Source: Thermoguttaceae bacterium (GTDB lineage: Bacteria > Planctomycetota > Planctomycetia > Pirellulales > Thermoguttaceae). From it: a stretch of DNA of 64,000 bases. Made by a program: the position numbers and the translations under genes. The stretch lies in contig JAGBAA010000112.1 of the NCBI GenBank assembly GCA_017939795.1, positions 1 to 64,000 on the forward strand, read 5' to 3'. The notes beneath the pieces are model-generated. The model saw nothing but the letters and a program-made list of their open reading frames with translations, was not told the DNA's origin and did not search any database. Of the stretch, positions 2,697 through 45,212 are shown piece after piece (positions within the stretch are counted from its first letter, which is position 1; the number at the start of each line of letters is the position of its first letter).

Positions 2697-2912
2697 AGTC
2701 AAAATTTTATTAAAATCTTCAAATCAAGACAGATCTTTGCTCGATCTTATCAAATTTCATCATTTTTTAGTTAAACAGATCCGGAATTAGTCAAAATCTT
2801 GTTAGATCCTATCAAATTTAGTCAAATATTTTTAAAACTTATCAAATTTTTGTCAAATTTAGATAATTTTCGTCAAAAAATTTTAAAATTAGTCAAATTT
2901 TATTAAAATCAT
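2697..2912 (+). repeat. Helically phased array of TCAAA/TTAAA units upstream of the AlbA_2 regulator
   Basis: TCAAA begins at 2699, 2719, 2750, 2791, 2812, 2822, 2842, 2853, 2873 and 2893. Variant TTAAA or TTAGA units fall in the gaps at 2710, 2771, 2802, 2832, 2883 and 2903. The steps are 10-11 bases or multiples (mean about 10.2). Many units continue as TCAAATTT, an A3T3-type tract. The array ends just before the promoter of the gene at 2991. It could be an intrinsically bent DNA segment, a row of operator half-sites, or a decayed 10-11 bp minisatellite. Confidence 0.7.
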
Positions 2913-2990: not shown

Positions 2991-4436
2991 ATGACGGAAC
3001 AAGAATTGAGAGAACTGGTCCAATTGGTTCAGGAAAGAAAATGTGAATGGCGGCAGCTTGAGCTGAAAGCAGCCCATCAAGGCTGTCCGAAAAAACTCTA
3101 CGATACACTTTCAGCCTTTTCCAATCAGGACGGCGGCGGAACGATCCTGTTCGGGATCGATGAAGGAAAAGAGTACGAAGTCGTCGGTGTATACGACATG
3201 GAGGACCTCCAGAAAAAAGTCAACGAACAGTGCAAGCAGATGGAACCAGTCGTCAGGCCGACATTTACTCTGACGGTTTTCGAGGATGGAAAAGGCGTGG
3301 TCAGTGCAGAGATACCGGCAGTTGATATTTCGGAACGTCCCTGCTGCTATCGCGGAAAGGGGCGTGTTGACGGCTCCTGGGTCCGAGTAGGAGATTCCGA
3401 TGAACCAATGAGCGAATATGAAGTCTATTCCTACGAAGCATTCCGGAAACAGCTTGAGGATGATATTCGGCCTGCGCAGAAAGAAAATATTCAAATCGCG
3501 ATCGATCAGGAAAAGGTAAAGCAATATCTCACGATCCTCAAGACGGAAAATCCGCGTCTGTCTCAGCTTTCTGATACGGACATCCTCAAATTTTCCAGTC
3601 TGTATCGTGAAAATGTGCCATCCTTAATGTGTGTTCTGATGTTTTCGAACTTTCCTCAAATGTTTTATCCGCAGTACACGATCAACGCGACGGTCATTCC
3701 CGGTACGGAACGGGGCAGTGTCACAGAAGATGGAACAAGATTTCTCGATAATCGAAGGATCGAAGGAAGCATCCCGGAGATCCTCGAAAGCGCACTCGCT
3801 TTCGTCATCAAAAATATGAAAGTCCAGACCCGTATCGATCCGCGTACTGGAAAGCGATACGACAAAACAGAGTATCCGATCGCGGCAGTCCGCGAAGCGA
3901 TCCTGAATGCTTTGGTCCATCGAGACTACAGTATCCATTCCGAGGGAAAGCCGATCGAACTCACGATGTTCAGAGATCGGCTGGAGCTCCGTAATCCGGG
4001 AGGACTTTACGGCAAATTAACGATCGATCAGTTGGGAAATGTTCAGCCGGACACACGAAATAAACGTCTCGCAAGACTTCTCGAAACGCTGAAGATCACG
4101 GAAAACCGCTATTCCGGGATCCCGACCATTCGGCGTGAATTAAAGGAAGCGGGACTGCAGCCGCCGGAATTCGCGGATTCACGGAGTGAATTTCGGGTCA
4201 CGTTCTACAACGAACCGATCGAAGACAAACAACACAATGTCAATGAACAGGAAAGGGAATTGCTCGAATTCTGCCGAACACCGAGAACACGGCAGGAGAT
4301 TGCAGAATGGCTCGGAGTAAAGTCGGCAGCATATGCCATGTCGCGCAATGTGAAGCCGCTTCTTGAACAGGGACTTCTGAAAATGACGCTGCCGGAAACT
4401 CCCAAAAGCAAAGATCAGAAATTTTTCAGTGAATAA
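2991..4436 (+). CDS. AlbA_2/HATPase_c_4 DNA-binding regulator (Schlafen AAA_4-like, RecG-like annotation class)
   Basis: The 481-residue protein starts with an AlbA_2 (Schlafen/AAA_4) domain at about residues 10-135, shown by LELKAA and by FSNQDGGGTILFGIDE, the family signature. A GHKL-type HATPase_c_4 domain follows at about 280-400, with REAILNALVHRDYS and LRNPGGLYG. The C terminus (about 415-475) looks like a winged helix. Such proteins are often mis-annotated as ATP-dependent helicases. They are generally regarded as transcription regulators or parts of defence or toxin-antitoxin loci. No partner gene lies beside it: it is a single gene with its own promoter and an unusual phased A/T repeat array upstream, which could be its own operator. 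Start chosen for the AGAAGGAG site. Confidence 0.85.
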   Translation: MTEQELRELVQLVQERKCEWRQLELKAAHQGCPKKLYDTLSAFSNQDGGGTILFGIDEGKEYEVVGVYDMEDLQKKVNEQCKQMEPVVRPTFTLTVFEDGKGVVSAEIPAVDISERPCCYRGKGRVDGSWVRVGDSDEPMSEYEVYSYEAFRKQLEDDIRPAQKENIQIAIDQEKVKQYLTILKTENPRLSQLSDTDILKFSSLYRENVPSLMCVLMFSNFPQMFYPQYTINATVIPGTERGSVTEDGTRFLDNRRIEGSIPEILESALAFVIKNMKVQTRIDPRTGKRYDKTEYPIAAVREAILNALVHRDYSIHSEGKPIELTMFRDRLELRNPGGLYGKLTIDQLGNVQPDTRNKRLARLLETLKITENRYSGIPTIRRELKEAGLQPPEFADSRSEFRVTFYNEPIEDKQHNVNEQERELLEFCRTPRTRQEIAEWLGVKSAAYAMSRNVKPLLEQGLLKMTLPETPKSKDQKFFSE

Positions 4437-28491: not shown

Positions 28492-30231
28492 TCAGGGACT
28501 GGCCTGATCCTGCGCCGCCTCTTCTCTTTTCGTGTCGGAAAGCCGGCGAAGCTCAAAATCTTTATTTTCAAAGACCAGCTCGTAATCTTCGATCCCATTG
28601 CGGGTCTTCATCAAAATGTGCCGTCCCTTCAGATCGTGTTTATTCCGCACGATGTAGTCTGCACCGTATTTCGTCTTCAAAAGCTCGATTTTCGCTTTCG
28701 GCATCTGGGTAAAAGAACCGGCTCGGCCGTAGGTCTGTCCGGGTTTGTTGATGTCGAATGCGTAAAACTGATCCTGCATCCGCTCCCACCATTCGCAAAG
28801 TCCGCCGGCATCCTGCGGAATGTCTTTCCAGACACCGACCTCCCCGCGCCGGGCAAACCATCGGAAAGTCCGTGTCGTGTACGGAACCACAAAAAGGGCA
28901 TCTTTTTCCGTATTTTCCCGAGCGAAACGGCAAAGTTCCTGCCAGGTCTCTCCGCGCGAAGCTCCGGAACAGGAGCGGGGACGCATCGGTTTTGAGAATT
29001 TTCCAAGCGCACCGTAAAACGTCATGCCGGACGCAAGAACGGCCATCCCCAGAAGGACCATACCGCTCAGCCGACGGCCGGAAAGTCGTGTATTTTGGCC
29101 GGAAAGTCGTGTATTTTGGCCGGAAATAGTATTTTGGCCGGAAAGCCGTGTATTTTGGCAGAGTCCGTCTGCGTATCGAATGAAGAGTAACGAAACCCCC
29201 AGAGGCAGCATGACGTCCGCAAGCCGGAACCAGTAGTATCGAAGCAGTGAGGCTGCCTTATCCGGAGCGATCTCAATGAAAAGATTGATCCCCCACCCGA
29301 TCATGGCGATCACCAGCGCACCGCAAATGAACGTTCGGAACGTCATGTCTCCATGCGAGGTCCGCGGTCGGGCACAAAGGAAGCCCCAAACCAGGATCAG
29401 GAGAGCAAAAAGCCCAAGTTTCACCGAGTTGTGCTCTGCCATGTGGCTCAGAAGCAGATGATGCGGCAAACGCTCATAGACGTAAAGGTACGTCGCATTC
29501 CGGGCGGTCTCAGCCGGAACGTCCGCATTGAGCTGCAGTGCCGGAACCAGCGCGGGAAGCGTAAACAGCACGGCAGCCGTCAGGCCGGGAAGAAGCTCGC
29601 GCAGTGAAGGAAGAAAGCACTTTTCCAGATCTGCCGGCGAACCGTTTTTCTTCAGAGTGCGTTCGTGAATGTTCAGTACGAGCCACGCGATCCCCAGTGC
29701 GGCGATACACCATCCGCCGACCAGAACGTGAAACATGGCGCCGATGCCGAAAAAGACCAGTGCACGATTCCACCGGTTTCGGAAAAGTTCTCCAAGGCCG
29801 AAGAACACAAAAACATACGCGAATCCTTTTGCTTCCACGCCGCCGACGACCCATTCTCCGGCACAGGAACATTTCTGGTTCAAAAAAAGGAAAAGAAGTG
29901 CCGAAAGGACCCCGAATCCCCAGCGTTTGAAGACGGGACGCGTCATCCGCCACCAGCCGGCCGCCATGCCGAACCAGGTAAGACAGCGTCCGATCCAAAT
30001 GACGGTCTCCATCGGGAAAAGAAGCGTCAGCCAGCCGAATGTCCAGTAAAATACCGCGTGCGCATCCTGGGAATCCAGAAAAAAATCCCCATGCACGTAG
30101 TCCGGATTCCAGAAATGAGCCGCTTTTTCAATATAGTGCGCCTCATTAACGTCCGGTACCGCATACGTTCCGACGAGAAAAAATATGGCAAAAATCAATA
30201 AAATTTCCAACTTGTTCAGGCAAAATTTCAT
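28492..30231 (-). CDS. Polytopic membrane protein of unknown function with tandem QNTRLSG repeats
   Basis: The 579-residue protein has about ten hydrophobic segments (for example LLIFAIFFLVGTYA, FGVLSALLFLFLN, ALVFFGIGAMFHVLVGGWCIAALGIAWLVL, TAAVLFTLPALVPAL, LGLFALLILVWGFL). The first loop is acidic and aromatic (VPDVNEAHYIEKAAHFWNPD). The topology resembles planctomycete integral-membrane glycosyltransferase-like (GT-C) proteins, but no catalytic motif is certain. Between two late transmembrane segments (residues about 357-386) lies a repeat QNTRLSG-QNTISG-QNTRLSG-QNTRLSG encoded by a 21 bp tandem repeat. The soluble C-terminal part (about 410-579) contains FVVPYTTRTFRWFARRGEVGVWKDIPQ. Confidence 0.7.
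   Translation of the reverse strand: MKFCLNKLEILLIFAIFFLVGTYAVPDVNEAHYIEKAAHFWNPDYVHGDFFLDSQDAHAVFYWTFGWLTLLFPMETVIWIGRCLTWFGMAAGWWRMTRPVFKRWGFGVLSALLFLFLNQKCSCAGEWVVGGVEAKGFAYVFVFFGLGELFRNRWNRALVFFGIGAMFHVLVGGWCIAALGIAWLVLNIHERTLKKNGSPADLEKCFLPSLRELLPGLTAAVLFTLPALVPALQLNADVPAETARNATYLYVYERLPHHLLLSHMAEHNSVKLGLFALLILVWGFLCARPRTSHGDMTFRTFICGALVIAMIGWGINLFIEIAPDKAASLLRYYWFRLADVMLPLGVSLLFIRYADGLCQNTRLSGQNTISGQNTRLSGQNTRLSGRRLSGMVLLGMAVLASGMTFYGALGKFSKPMRPRSCSGASRGETWQELCRFARENTEKDALFVVPYTTRTFRWFARRGEVGVWKDIPQDAGGLCEWWERMQDQFYAFDINKPGQTYGRAGSFTQMPKAKIELLKTKYGADYIVRNKHDLKGRHILMKTRNGIEDYELVFENKDFELRRLSDTKREEAAQDQASP
29078..29158 (-). repeat. 21 bp tandem repeats inside the membrane-protein gene
   Basis: Four units of CCGGAAAGTCGTGTATTTTGG: three of 21 bp (29078-29098, 29099-29119, 29138-29158) and one of 18 bp (29120-29137). 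All keep the reading frame and encode QNTRLSG or QNTISG. Units 1 and 2 are identical, so expansion is recent. Confidence 0.9.
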
Positions 30232-30975: not shown

Positions 30976-31049
30976 CAAAACGCCAAAACGGCAAGCCGCC
31001 AAAACGCCAAAACGGTAAGCCGCCAAAACGCCAAAACGCAAAAAACGGC
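30976..31049. repeat. 24 bp intergenic tandem repeat
   Basis: CAAAACGCCAAAACGGCAAGCCGC occurs at 30976-30999 and 31000-31023 (one change), with a partial third copy at 31024-31049. It lies between the stop codons of two convergent genes. Inside each unit CAAAACG is itself repeated. Confidence 0.8.
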
Positions 31050-42152: not shown

Positions 42153-45100
42153 TCATTCGGAATCCAATGTTTCTTCATTTTCGCTGTCGGCGGCATCCTC
42201 TGAAATGCATTCAGAAACAGGGGTCTCGGAATCGGCCGAAAGCTCTTCCGAAAGTCCCGCAGCAAAGGTGCCGGCAGAAAGTTCCGCACTTTCCCCTGTA
42301 CTGATTTCGCCGGCAGTTTCATCATCAGCGGCTGCAGCACTGGCACCGGTATCCGTTCCGTTCAGGATCCCGGCTAAAAACTCGGCATTCGTTTTGGTTT
42401 TTCCAAGCCGATTGGTAAGCATCGCCATGGCGTCCGCAGGATTCAGCGCAGAAAGCAGATGCCGCAGTTTAATGACCGCGTGCAGTTCCTCTTCAGTCCG
42501 ATACGCATCTTCATGCCGGGTCCCGCTGCGGCTCAGATCCACGGCAGGCCAGATCCCTTCTGCCTGCAGACGTTTTTCCAGCGTGATCTCCACACTGCCG
42601 CTGCCTCGGAACTCTTCCAGGATCGCCTCGTCCATCCCATTGTTCGTATCCGTCAAAAGTGTCGCCAGGATCGTCAAAGACCCCCCTTCTTCCACACACC
42701 GTGCAGATCCGAAAAACCGTTTCGGAAGCTGGAACGAACCGGCATGGAAACTGTTTCCGTATTCCGGAAGCATCTTCATTCCCGGAGGTGTTTCCGAATG
42801 CCAGGCCCGAGTCAGCTGGGTCATGGAATCCAGCAGGATCAGAACATTCTGCCCATACTCGACCATACGCTTCGCCTTCTCGATGACCATGTCCGCGACC
42901 TGAATGTGCCGCATCGTAGGTTCATCCGAAGTGGAACAGACGACTTCGCAGTTCATTCCCTGCACAAGTTTCCGCATATTTTCCACTTCTTCCGGGCGTT
43001 CGTCGATCAGGAGAATGAAAACGTAAAGATCCGGATAGTTCTTCAGCGCAGACTGTGCGATCTTGCGCAAAAGCGTCGTTCTACCCGTCTGCGGCGGACT
43101 CAGGATCAGACCGCGCTGACCGAATGCGAGCGGAACCATCATATCCAGAACACGGGTCTCCACATCTTCCGGGTCGGATTCCAGACTCATTCGCTGGGAC
43201 GGTGCCGTCGGCGTCAGAGTATCAAAATGTTTTTTGCGCGTAAACTCGTTTGGATCCTGATAATTGATCGCCTCGACACGCAAAAGTGCAAAGTACCGTT
43301 CATTTTCTTTTGGCGGACGGATCTGTCCCGAAACGATCGTTCCCGTCTTCAGACCAAAACGCCGAATCTGGCTCGGAGAAACGTAAATATCGTCCGGACA
43401 GGAAAGGTAATGGTATTCCGTGCTGCGAAGAAAACCGAAACCGTCAGGAAGGATCTCAAGCGTCCCCTCTCCGTAAAGAAGGCCGTTCAGTTTGATCTTT
43501 TCCTTGATGATCTGGAAGATCAGTTCCTGACGCTGTGCGTGCTCCTCATCCGGCACACCGATCTCAAAACGGCGAGCCTCCGCGATCAGTTCCTGCATGG
43601 AAAGTTTCTGAAGATGCCCGACAGATTCATTCCGCAAAGAAACGGTTTGACTCATTCCATCCCCGTCCGAAGCAGGATTCTTATGGCCGCGGCTCATTTC
43701 GTCAGCAAGTTCCTCCGCAAGTGAAAGAGGTTCCTTGGATGAGCGGTCCTCATGCAGTTCCGGAAATGCCGGATTGTACGTACTATAGCCATCCTGATTT
43801 CGTCGGTGCGGCCTGCCGTAAGGCCGATTTCCATAATCTCGCGGACCACCGAAACCACTGCGGGGCCCGGTTCCTTCTTCACCGGAAGTGGAACCATTTT
43901 CGCGCGAATAGTATCGGGAACGATATTGCGGACCACGCTGGTACGGAACACCGCCGCGAGACCAACCGCTGCGGCCAAAAGGTCTGCTTTCCTGACTCTC
44001 TTCGCCTTTTTCTTCCAGATCGGGAGCCGGATACGTCTGCTCAACACCAGATTCGAGATCCCGGTTTGCGTATCGGCGTGAACCCTGACCGTATCCGTCA
44101 CCGCCATAGTTCCGTCCGCCATAATTCCGACCATAGTTCCGGTCGCCGTAGTTCCGGTCGCCATAGTTCCGGTCGCCATAGTTCCGGTCGCCGTAGTTCC
44201 GGTCGCCGTAGTTCCGGTCGCCGTAGTTCCGGTCGCCGTAGTTCCGGTCGCCGTAGTTCCGGTCGCCATAGTTCCGGTCGCCGTAGTTCCGGTCGCCATA
44301 GTTTCGGTCGCCGTAGTTTCGATCGCCGTAGTTCCGGTCGCCATAGTTTCGATCGCCGTAGTTTCGATCGCCATAGTTCCGATCGCCATAGTTCCGATCG
44401 CCATAGTTCCGATCGCCATAGTTCCGGTCGCCGTAGTTCCGGTCGCCGTAGTTCCGATCGCCGTAGTTCCGGTCGCCGTAGTTCCGGTCGCCGTAGTTTC
44501 GATCGCCGTAGTTCCGACCGTTCCCCGATACGTAATTCTGCCGCATCATGCGTCCAGTACGGGACAGCTGACGATCCGTTCGCTGCCTAAAAGAAGAACG
44601 AGGAGCCATTTCCCCATCATGTTCCTGCATATTGCGGTCCATTCGTTCGGAAAAATATCCGGTACCGTCACGCGATTCGCCGGAAATTTCTTCATTCGCG
44701 CCCTCTGAAGGCTCTCGGTCCTGCGTTTCTGCCGGCCTGTCCTCCGAATAGATCCCATAAAAACCATCTCCTGGATCCCCACATGCGGACGTTTTCTGTA
44801 CGCCATCCGCTCCAGCTGAAGCATTCAGTCCGGAAGACATGGGTTCGGCAGAAAGCTCCAGCGGATCCGGCCTGGATCCCGAGCCGGTTCCCTCTGCGTC
44901 ATCTTCCAGCTCCAGACCATACCCGAATGCCGAAGATCCAGACCGATTGCGGGATCCCGAACGAAAACGGGAAAACGCACTCACTCCGCGAGGCTGTACC
45001 GGATCATGAGGATACGAATTTCGCGCCTTAAGATAGGGACGCTCCTGTTGAGAAACGCCGTCCATGAAAGATTCCGCAGAAGACTGATTTTCTGTGGAAG

Positions 45101-45212
45101 ATCCCTGATCTTCGATACTCTGAGCCGTTTCAAAACCGGGATCTCCGGCACGAAAGTTTTCATTGGCAGGGAAGGATTCCGGTGATCTACCGGTGATCGG
45201 ACCGTCGGACAT
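42153..45212 (-). CDS. rho: Divergent transcription termination factor Rho with RNYGD repeat domain and altered P-loop
   Basis: Rho is the hexameric RNA translocase that ends transcription. The 1019-residue protein is more than twice the usual 420. Residues 1-540 are disordered, with 25 consecutive RNYGD units at about 232-361. The RNA-binding part follows (KLSMQELIAEARRFEIG, DGFGFLRSTEYHYLSCPDDIYVSPSQIRRFGLKTG), then the RecA-type motor. The Walker A loop reads SPPQTGRTTLL, not APPKAGKTxLL: the P-loop lysine is Arg711 and the neighbouring lysine is Gln708 (codon AGA read directly at 43082-43080). The Q-loop region (EYGNSFHAG) also differs, and DSITRLARA is DSMTQLTRA. Conserved: LLIDERPEEV, PKRFFGSAR, EEGGSLTI, SRSGTRHED. 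A Glu/Ser/Asp-rich tail follows (about 950-1019). It could be a paralogue with altered activity or the only Rho. AGGAG precedes the ATG. Confidence 0.9.
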   Translation of the reverse strand: MSDGPITGRSPESFPANENFRAGDPGFETAQSIEDQGSSTENQSSAESFMDGVSQQERPYLKARNSYPHDPVQPRGVSAFSRFRSGSRNRSGSSAFGYGLELEDDAEGTGSGSRPDPLELSAEPMSSGLNASAGADGVQKTSACGDPGDGFYGIYSEDRPAETQDREPSEGANEEISGESRDGTGYFSERMDRNMQEHDGEMAPRSSFRQRTDRQLSRTGRMMRQNYVSGNGRNYGDRNYGDRNYGDRNYGDRNYGDRNYGDRNYGDRNYGDRNYGDRNYGDRNYGDRNYGDRNYGDRNYGDRNYGDRNYGDRNYGDRNYGDRNYGDRNYGDRNYGDRNYGDRNYGDRNYGDRNYGDRNYGRNYGGRNYGGDGYGQGSRRYANRDLESGVEQTYPAPDLEEKGEESQESRPFGRSGWSRGGVPYQRGPQYRSRYYSRENGSTSGEEGTGPRSGFGGPRDYGNRPYGRPHRRNQDGYSTYNPAFPELHEDRSSKEPLSLAEELADEMSRGHKNPASDGDGMSQTVSLRNESVGHLQKLSMQELIAEARRFEIGVPDEEHAQRQELIFQIIKEKIKLNGLLYGEGTLEILPDGFGFLRSTEYHYLSCPDDIYVSPSQIRRFGLKTGTIVSGQIRPPKENERYFALLRVEAINYQDPNEFTRKKHFDTLTPTAPSQRMSLESDPEDVETRVLDMMVPLAFGQRGLILSPPQTGRTTLLRKIAQSALKNYPDLYVFILLIDERPEEVENMRKLVQGMNCEVVCSTSDEPTMRHIQVADMVIEKAKRMVEYGQNVLILLDSMTQLTRAWHSETPPGMKMLPEYGNSFHAGSFQLPKRFFGSARCVEEGGSLTILATLLTDTNNGMDEAILEEFRGSGSVEITLEKRLQAEGIWPAVDLSRSGTRHEDAYRTEEELHAVIKLRHLLSALNPADAMAMLTNRLGKTKTNAEFLAGILNGTDTGASAAAADDETAGEISTGESAELSAGTFAAGLSEELSADSETPVSECISEDAADSENEETLDSE
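44131..44520 (-). repeat. 15 bp tandem repeat array (26 units) encoding RNYGD
   Basis: 26 units of 15 bp follow each other without interruption. Each encodes Arg-Asn-Tyr-Gly-Asp. Changes are almost all synonymous (CCG/CCA, GGTCG/GATCG, GTTCC/GTTTC), so the protein repeat is under selection even though DNA units vary. Confidence 0.97.

Follow-up and report, generated by a model that had tools for sequence, protein, structure and literature searches.

The window, that is, the whole stretch of 64,000 nucleotides that was analysed, carries a helically phased array of short words between an acyl-CoA synthetase gene (454/493-2628) and the gene of a 481-residue regulator-like protein. The features considered below are as follows:

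2656-2681, + strand: terminator-like hairpin (stem 2656-2673) followed by a T-run, tail GCGCTTTTTT
2697-2912, + strand: helically phased array of 15 TYAAA words, unit about TTAGTCAAAT, period 10.2 bp
2925-2930, + strand: likely weak −35 element TTGCTG, from sequence and promoter pick
2945-2953, + strand: likely extended −10 element TGG TATACT (TGGTATACT), 17 bp after the −35
2976-2982, + strand: ribosome-binding site GAAGGAG, by inspection
2991-4436, + strand: gene of the 481-residue regulator-like protein
3045-3413, + strand: SLFN_AlbA_2 domain, residues 19-141 (E 4e-15; 56.8 bits against a Pfam gathering score of 25.3)
3945-4205, + strand: HATPase_c_4 domain, residues 319-405 (E 2e-26; 92.1 bits against a cut-off of 26)
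4254-4424, + strand: C-terminal winged helix, Fic-like_C, residues 422-478 (E 1e-7; 32.1 bits against a cut-off of 27)

The hairpin lies 3' of the acyl-CoA synthetase gene and suggests that the array escapes transcription from upstream; placed between this hairpin and the promoter, the array is probably untranscribed, which makes a role at the DNA level likely. A cis-regulatory RNA was considered and set aside, as the Rfam search gave two matches only, both below the gathering score. The promoter at 2925-2953 was assigned by eye and by simple scoring; its match to consensus is weak, and a generic promoter scan did not pick it up. The last word of the array (2903-2907) ends shortly before the likely −35, as the first-pass annotation had described.

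The array, its gene and their genus

Fifteen TYAAA words start in phase at 2699, 2710, 2719, 2750, 2771, 2791, 2812, 2822, 2832, 2842, 2853, 2873, 2883, 2893 and 2903, with a best period of 10.2 bp and a Rayleigh power of 14.25, the maximum possible being 15. None of 3000 dinucleotide-preserving shuffles reached 15 words or the power of the array, the mean count being 5.4, so that the phasing at 10.2 bp claimed in the first-pass annotation is borne out. Of the sixteen in-phase positions it had counted, fifteen stand; the possible sixteenth word, TCAA at 2724, lies 5 bp off the array phase. Likewise, its description of the units as A3T3-like holds for some but not for others, the constant part being TYAAA. 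A motif-blind Fourier scan of base composition ranked the array first in the 64-kb window for signal at 9.8-11.2 bp (score 13.1, against 7.1 for the runner-up), and across a 424-kb sample of the same genome, about a tenth of it, no helical periodicity was stronger. The only site in that sample to come near it was a simple tandem of TTTTTTGAGA units on contig C4 (score 12.2), and a second long array of this type was not found there, for which reason genome-wide A-tract phasing was rejected as an explanation. Short TYAAA triples do occur elsewhere in the genus.

Several other repeats were recorded. The tandem on contig C4 (G000; L062, 8481-8680) consists of about six 10-bp units flanked by an oxidoreductase-like gene and a divergent one, and a TCAAAAAATC array resembling it lies on contig C44 at 10718. 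Genome G003 contains a dispersed repeat family of more than 25 copies (e.g. L029, L039, L046), with TCAAAACCACCTCAAAAACAATTAAA inside a longer conserved element. In the window itself, a 15-bp repeat present 25 times at 44134-44516 encodes RNYGD repeats within a long extension at the N-terminus of a Rho-like protein (42153-45212, minus strand; by eye, transcription termination factor Rho), and tandem repeats of 21 bp x4 and of 8/24-bp units are found at 29076-29159 and 30976-31044, respectively.

The product of 2991-4436 is a member of the SLFN_AlbA_2 / HATPase_c_4 family (COG2865-like), each of the three domain tests being positive; HATPase_c_4, SLFN_AlbA_2 and Fic-like_C were its only Pfam matches, and an NCBIfam search gave no match. 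Among 64 orthologues E24 is invariant and E19 and K26 are nearly so, the three being the positions of a Schlafen-type E-x4-E-x-K signature. An AlphaFold2 model (mean pLDDT 84; pTM 0.63, the relative placement of the domains being uncertain) matched DIP2311 (PDB 3lmm) with Z 21.7 over 328 residues, but with an rmsd of 13.9 A. By parts, its N-terminus resembles 2kyy, a RecG-related N-terminal domain (Z 12.8), and Schlafen cores (Z 9-11), residues 221-411 resemble a histidine-kinase ATPase domain (6rgy, Z 8.2), and the C-terminus resembles winged-helix folds of the MarR/ArsR type (Z 8-9). Proteins combining AlbA_2 and HATPase_c_4 are present in many bacteria, plasmids and phages. Assignment to a defence system was rejected as insufficiently supported, the PADLOC matches being partial and to pAgo-associated models, and so was membership of the SARP or response-regulator families, given that the Pfam search gave no SARP/BTAD or receiver domain.

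Within the genus, the acyl-CoA synthetase gene was found in seven of seven relatives, but in G001 and G003-G007 inspection of the 900 bp that follow it revealed neither an AlbA_2 gene nor an array. Arrays with periods of 10.1-10.2 bp accompany both a 95% identical orthologue at the same location (G002) and a 62% identical one beside prmC (G006), the latter being an array of its own at another site than that of the window. As judged from these comparisons, it is the gene, and not the genomic locus, that the array tracks. The G002 array is set apart from that of the window by one indel alone, 51 bp long or five turns of 10.2 bp, and by 25 substitutions in 170 positions, against 26 in 78 for the adjoining promoter and leader. 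Changes affected 5 of 65 positions in words and 17 of 94 in spacers, a difference that is merely suggestive.

Phasing and words across the subfamily

Orthologues were drawn from 52 related loci in GTDB genomes, from 31 matching genomes in the same family as G060 and from later additions, mostly metagenome-assembled. Of the named genomes, those nearest to the window are goat-gut ones labelled 'Thermoguttaceae bacterium', which points to a gut planctomycete as its probable source. They are about 46-78% identical and come mostly from gut Firmicutes, plus Bifidobacterium, Akkermansia and one spirochaete, a spread over distant bacteria that indicates horizontal transfer. Two orthologues of 55-56% identity (L217, L218) lie on unverified faecal 'Bacteriophage sp.' contigs (MT837137, MT836711), L218 with a clean TTTTAGTGTTGATCTTC array at a spacing of about 21 bp.

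Conservation upstream of orthologues had been named as a check on the array, and the phasing proved to be kept. Repeated 7-mers (p<=0.02) were found in 10 of 41 orthologue upstream regions, against 1 of 87 AT-matched controls from the same contigs. In 61 orthologues, mostly of Firmicutes and with the three planctomycete ones left out, the distances between repeated 7-mers cluster at about 11, 21, 31, 41, 52 and 62 bp, giving a best period of 10.4 bp with a score of 15.0, the top of 200 shuffles being 3.8. With the period fixed beforehand, 13 held-out orthologues scored 8.9 against 3.0. Taken one by one, 43 of 48 informative orthologues were positive for phasing versus 10 of 24 controls, and the signal still stood at 10.2 once the seven cleanest arrays were removed. 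These are counts that are not fully independent, as orthologues share descent, and p-values therefore overstate the certainty. Given how many different words occur, and given the result for the held-out set, neither chance nor a single inherited repeat is a likely explanation. Some orthologues (e.g. L166, L237) have no clear array upstream, and distant relatives of 25-33% identity are mostly without obvious or consistent arrays, one of them (L006) carrying three copies of ATCGATTNTA at 10-bp spacing.

The arrays also keep a position relative to the promoter. Among the Lachnospiraceae, four orthologues have their closest TCAAA upstream of the −35 at 30-32 bp from the −10, which places the array in register with the promoter. 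Repeats in orthologues are densest 80-140 bp ahead of the start codon, and no more than 6 of 57 have them overlapping the called −35; sites cover the −35 in L129, L095 and L135. Sites upstream of the −35 are typical for activators and sites over it for repressors, and the positions seen here, mostly upstream and sometimes over it, do not decide between activation and repression for the presumed autoregulation.

The phasing is constant while the word differs between clades: AATAAGCAAA; AACTCAAA/AACTAAA; CGTTAATTC; GTTATCAAA or GTTGTCAAAC; and, in planctomycetes, GTCAAAT and AGTGAAA. The GTTGTCAAAC array of L184, at a spacing of 21 bp, is cleaner than that of the window. Residues in the putative recognition helix of the winged helix differ between the word clades as well. 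In a partial matrix comparison, corrected for the rest of the protein, similarity of the winged helix tracked similarity of the operator at p 0.007, the partial correlation being small (0.09); AlbA_2 gave p 0.06 and the other parts of the protein showed no association. Since a C-terminal winged helix exists and is the only part to track the operator at p 0.007, it is probably this domain, rather than AlbA_2, that would read the word. In the AACTCAAA clade (L096, L097, L098, L099, L102, L108, L168, L171, L175) the start codon and one copy of the word overlap (GGAAACTCAAATG), a possible source of further control at the leader.

Proposed control by the gene's own product and its alternatives

The repeats lie at whole helical turns and adjoin the promoter, an arrangement of the kind seen in phased direct-repeat operators. 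Taken with the comparisons above, this makes it quite probable that the array is a cooperative operator by which the product of 2991-4436 controls its own promoter. Each word would be read by a C-terminal winged helix, and neighbouring subunits would touch along one face of the helix, resulting in switch-like occupancy. The GHKL-type ATPase domain is a candidate for a nucleotide-dependent contact between subunits, and its presence raises the hypothesis of ATP-dependent assembly.

An alternative, to which we give little credence, is that the conserved function is intrinsic curvature from phased A-tracts, an upstream bend aiding RNA polymerase with no dedicated protein. A wedge model, its behaviour checked on phased A-tracts, predicted for the window array an end-to-contour ratio of 0.35 against 0.87 +/- 0.07 for shuffles, none of 500 being as curved, and predicted strong curvature in both genus relatives too. 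However, the phased arrays of L181 and L135 fall within the shuffle range and that of L184 is only mildly above it, so it is the phase of the sites that is conserved, and not curvature. Moreover, the words vary between clades, some being less A-rich (GTTGTCAAACTC, CGTTAATTC), and the array is bound up with one gene. Curvature is thus probably a by-product of phased A-rich words, or an aid in this genus, as far as the model goes. The first-pass annotation had offered either programmed curvature or a cooperative operator: the second is strongly supported by the orthologues, while the uncurved arrays weaken the first.

It is similarly improbable that what binds the array is not the product of the gene but a nucleoid protein or a different regulator. 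In favour of this reading, nucleoid proteins are attracted by A-rich phased DNA. Against it, the array accompanies the gene through distant bacteria into new surroundings, and word similarity follows the gene's winged helix. A survey of 46 loci found no conserved neighbour, and in three genomes searched whole (G451, G391 and G060) clean arrays cluster at the orthologue gene only, which together make the circuit look self-contained. The same survey revealed no conserved partition or replication partner, and a centromere or iteron site was rejected.

That the array is a functionless minisatellite produced by tandem-repeat expansion (slippage) is very hard to credit: near-identical units in L184 and L162 and the short run of TTTTTTGAGA units on C4 would fit it, but the window units have diverged with their phase retained, the adjoining leader has taken up more substitutions than the array, and the 10.4-bp rule and the position are common to different words in many clades.

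Known systems and significance

Phased direct-repeat operators are already known; the present arrays are longer, lie at the regulator's own gene and go with an unrelated protein architecture. Regulators of the PhoB/OmpR type are winged-helix proteins that bind in head-to-tail order along a single DNA face at steps of about 11 bp; unlike the system in the window, they are receiver-domain response regulators with short arrays and a fixed consensus. The SARP-LAL operators of Streptomyces (e.g. that of PimR) are heptamer direct repeats at 10-11 bp bound cooperatively with one monomer per repeat (PMC5930380). SARP and SARP-LAL systems share with the window the 10-11 bp steps, repeats upstream of the −35 and a protein in which DNA binding is paired with an ATPase region. 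They differ in having two or three heptamers, against up to 15 words here, in that the described target is another gene, whereas the window array adjoins the regulator's own, and in an unrelated architecture with neither AlbA_2 nor a GHKL ATPase.

By domains, the nearest characterised protein is TrlG of Photorhabdus, which has both SLFN_AlbA_2 and HATPase_c_4 in common with the window protein and whose known genetic phenotype is temperature restriction (PMC7554251). Its gene belongs to a three-gene operon, and no operator array is reported in the passages covered. The solved relatives DIP2311 (3lmm) and 2kyy were deposited as uncharacterised, and their entries give no operator. Our literature search found no operator for the AlbA_2/HATPase_c_4 family, which is not proof of absence.

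A more far-reaching and rather unlikely possibility is that the locus represents a widely transferred single-gene control unit, in which a Schlafen-core/GHKL-ATPase/winged-helix protein would form a nucleotide-gated chain on an array found at its own gene only, word and winged helix co-diversifying to give lineage-specific recognition. If true, such a co-diversifying, self-contained unit is what one would look for in a gene of immunity-like or selfish character that is restrained until triggered.

The labels 'RNA-binding', 'DNA-binding' or 'RecG-like helicase' given to AlbA_2/HATPase_c_4 proteins have no evidence behind them. A phased array at its own promoter provides each protein of the subfamily with a concrete predicted ligand, and the arrays thereby open a direct route to the DNA binding and ATP dependence of the subfamily, while the co-varying words and winged helices constitute a natural series for work on specificity.
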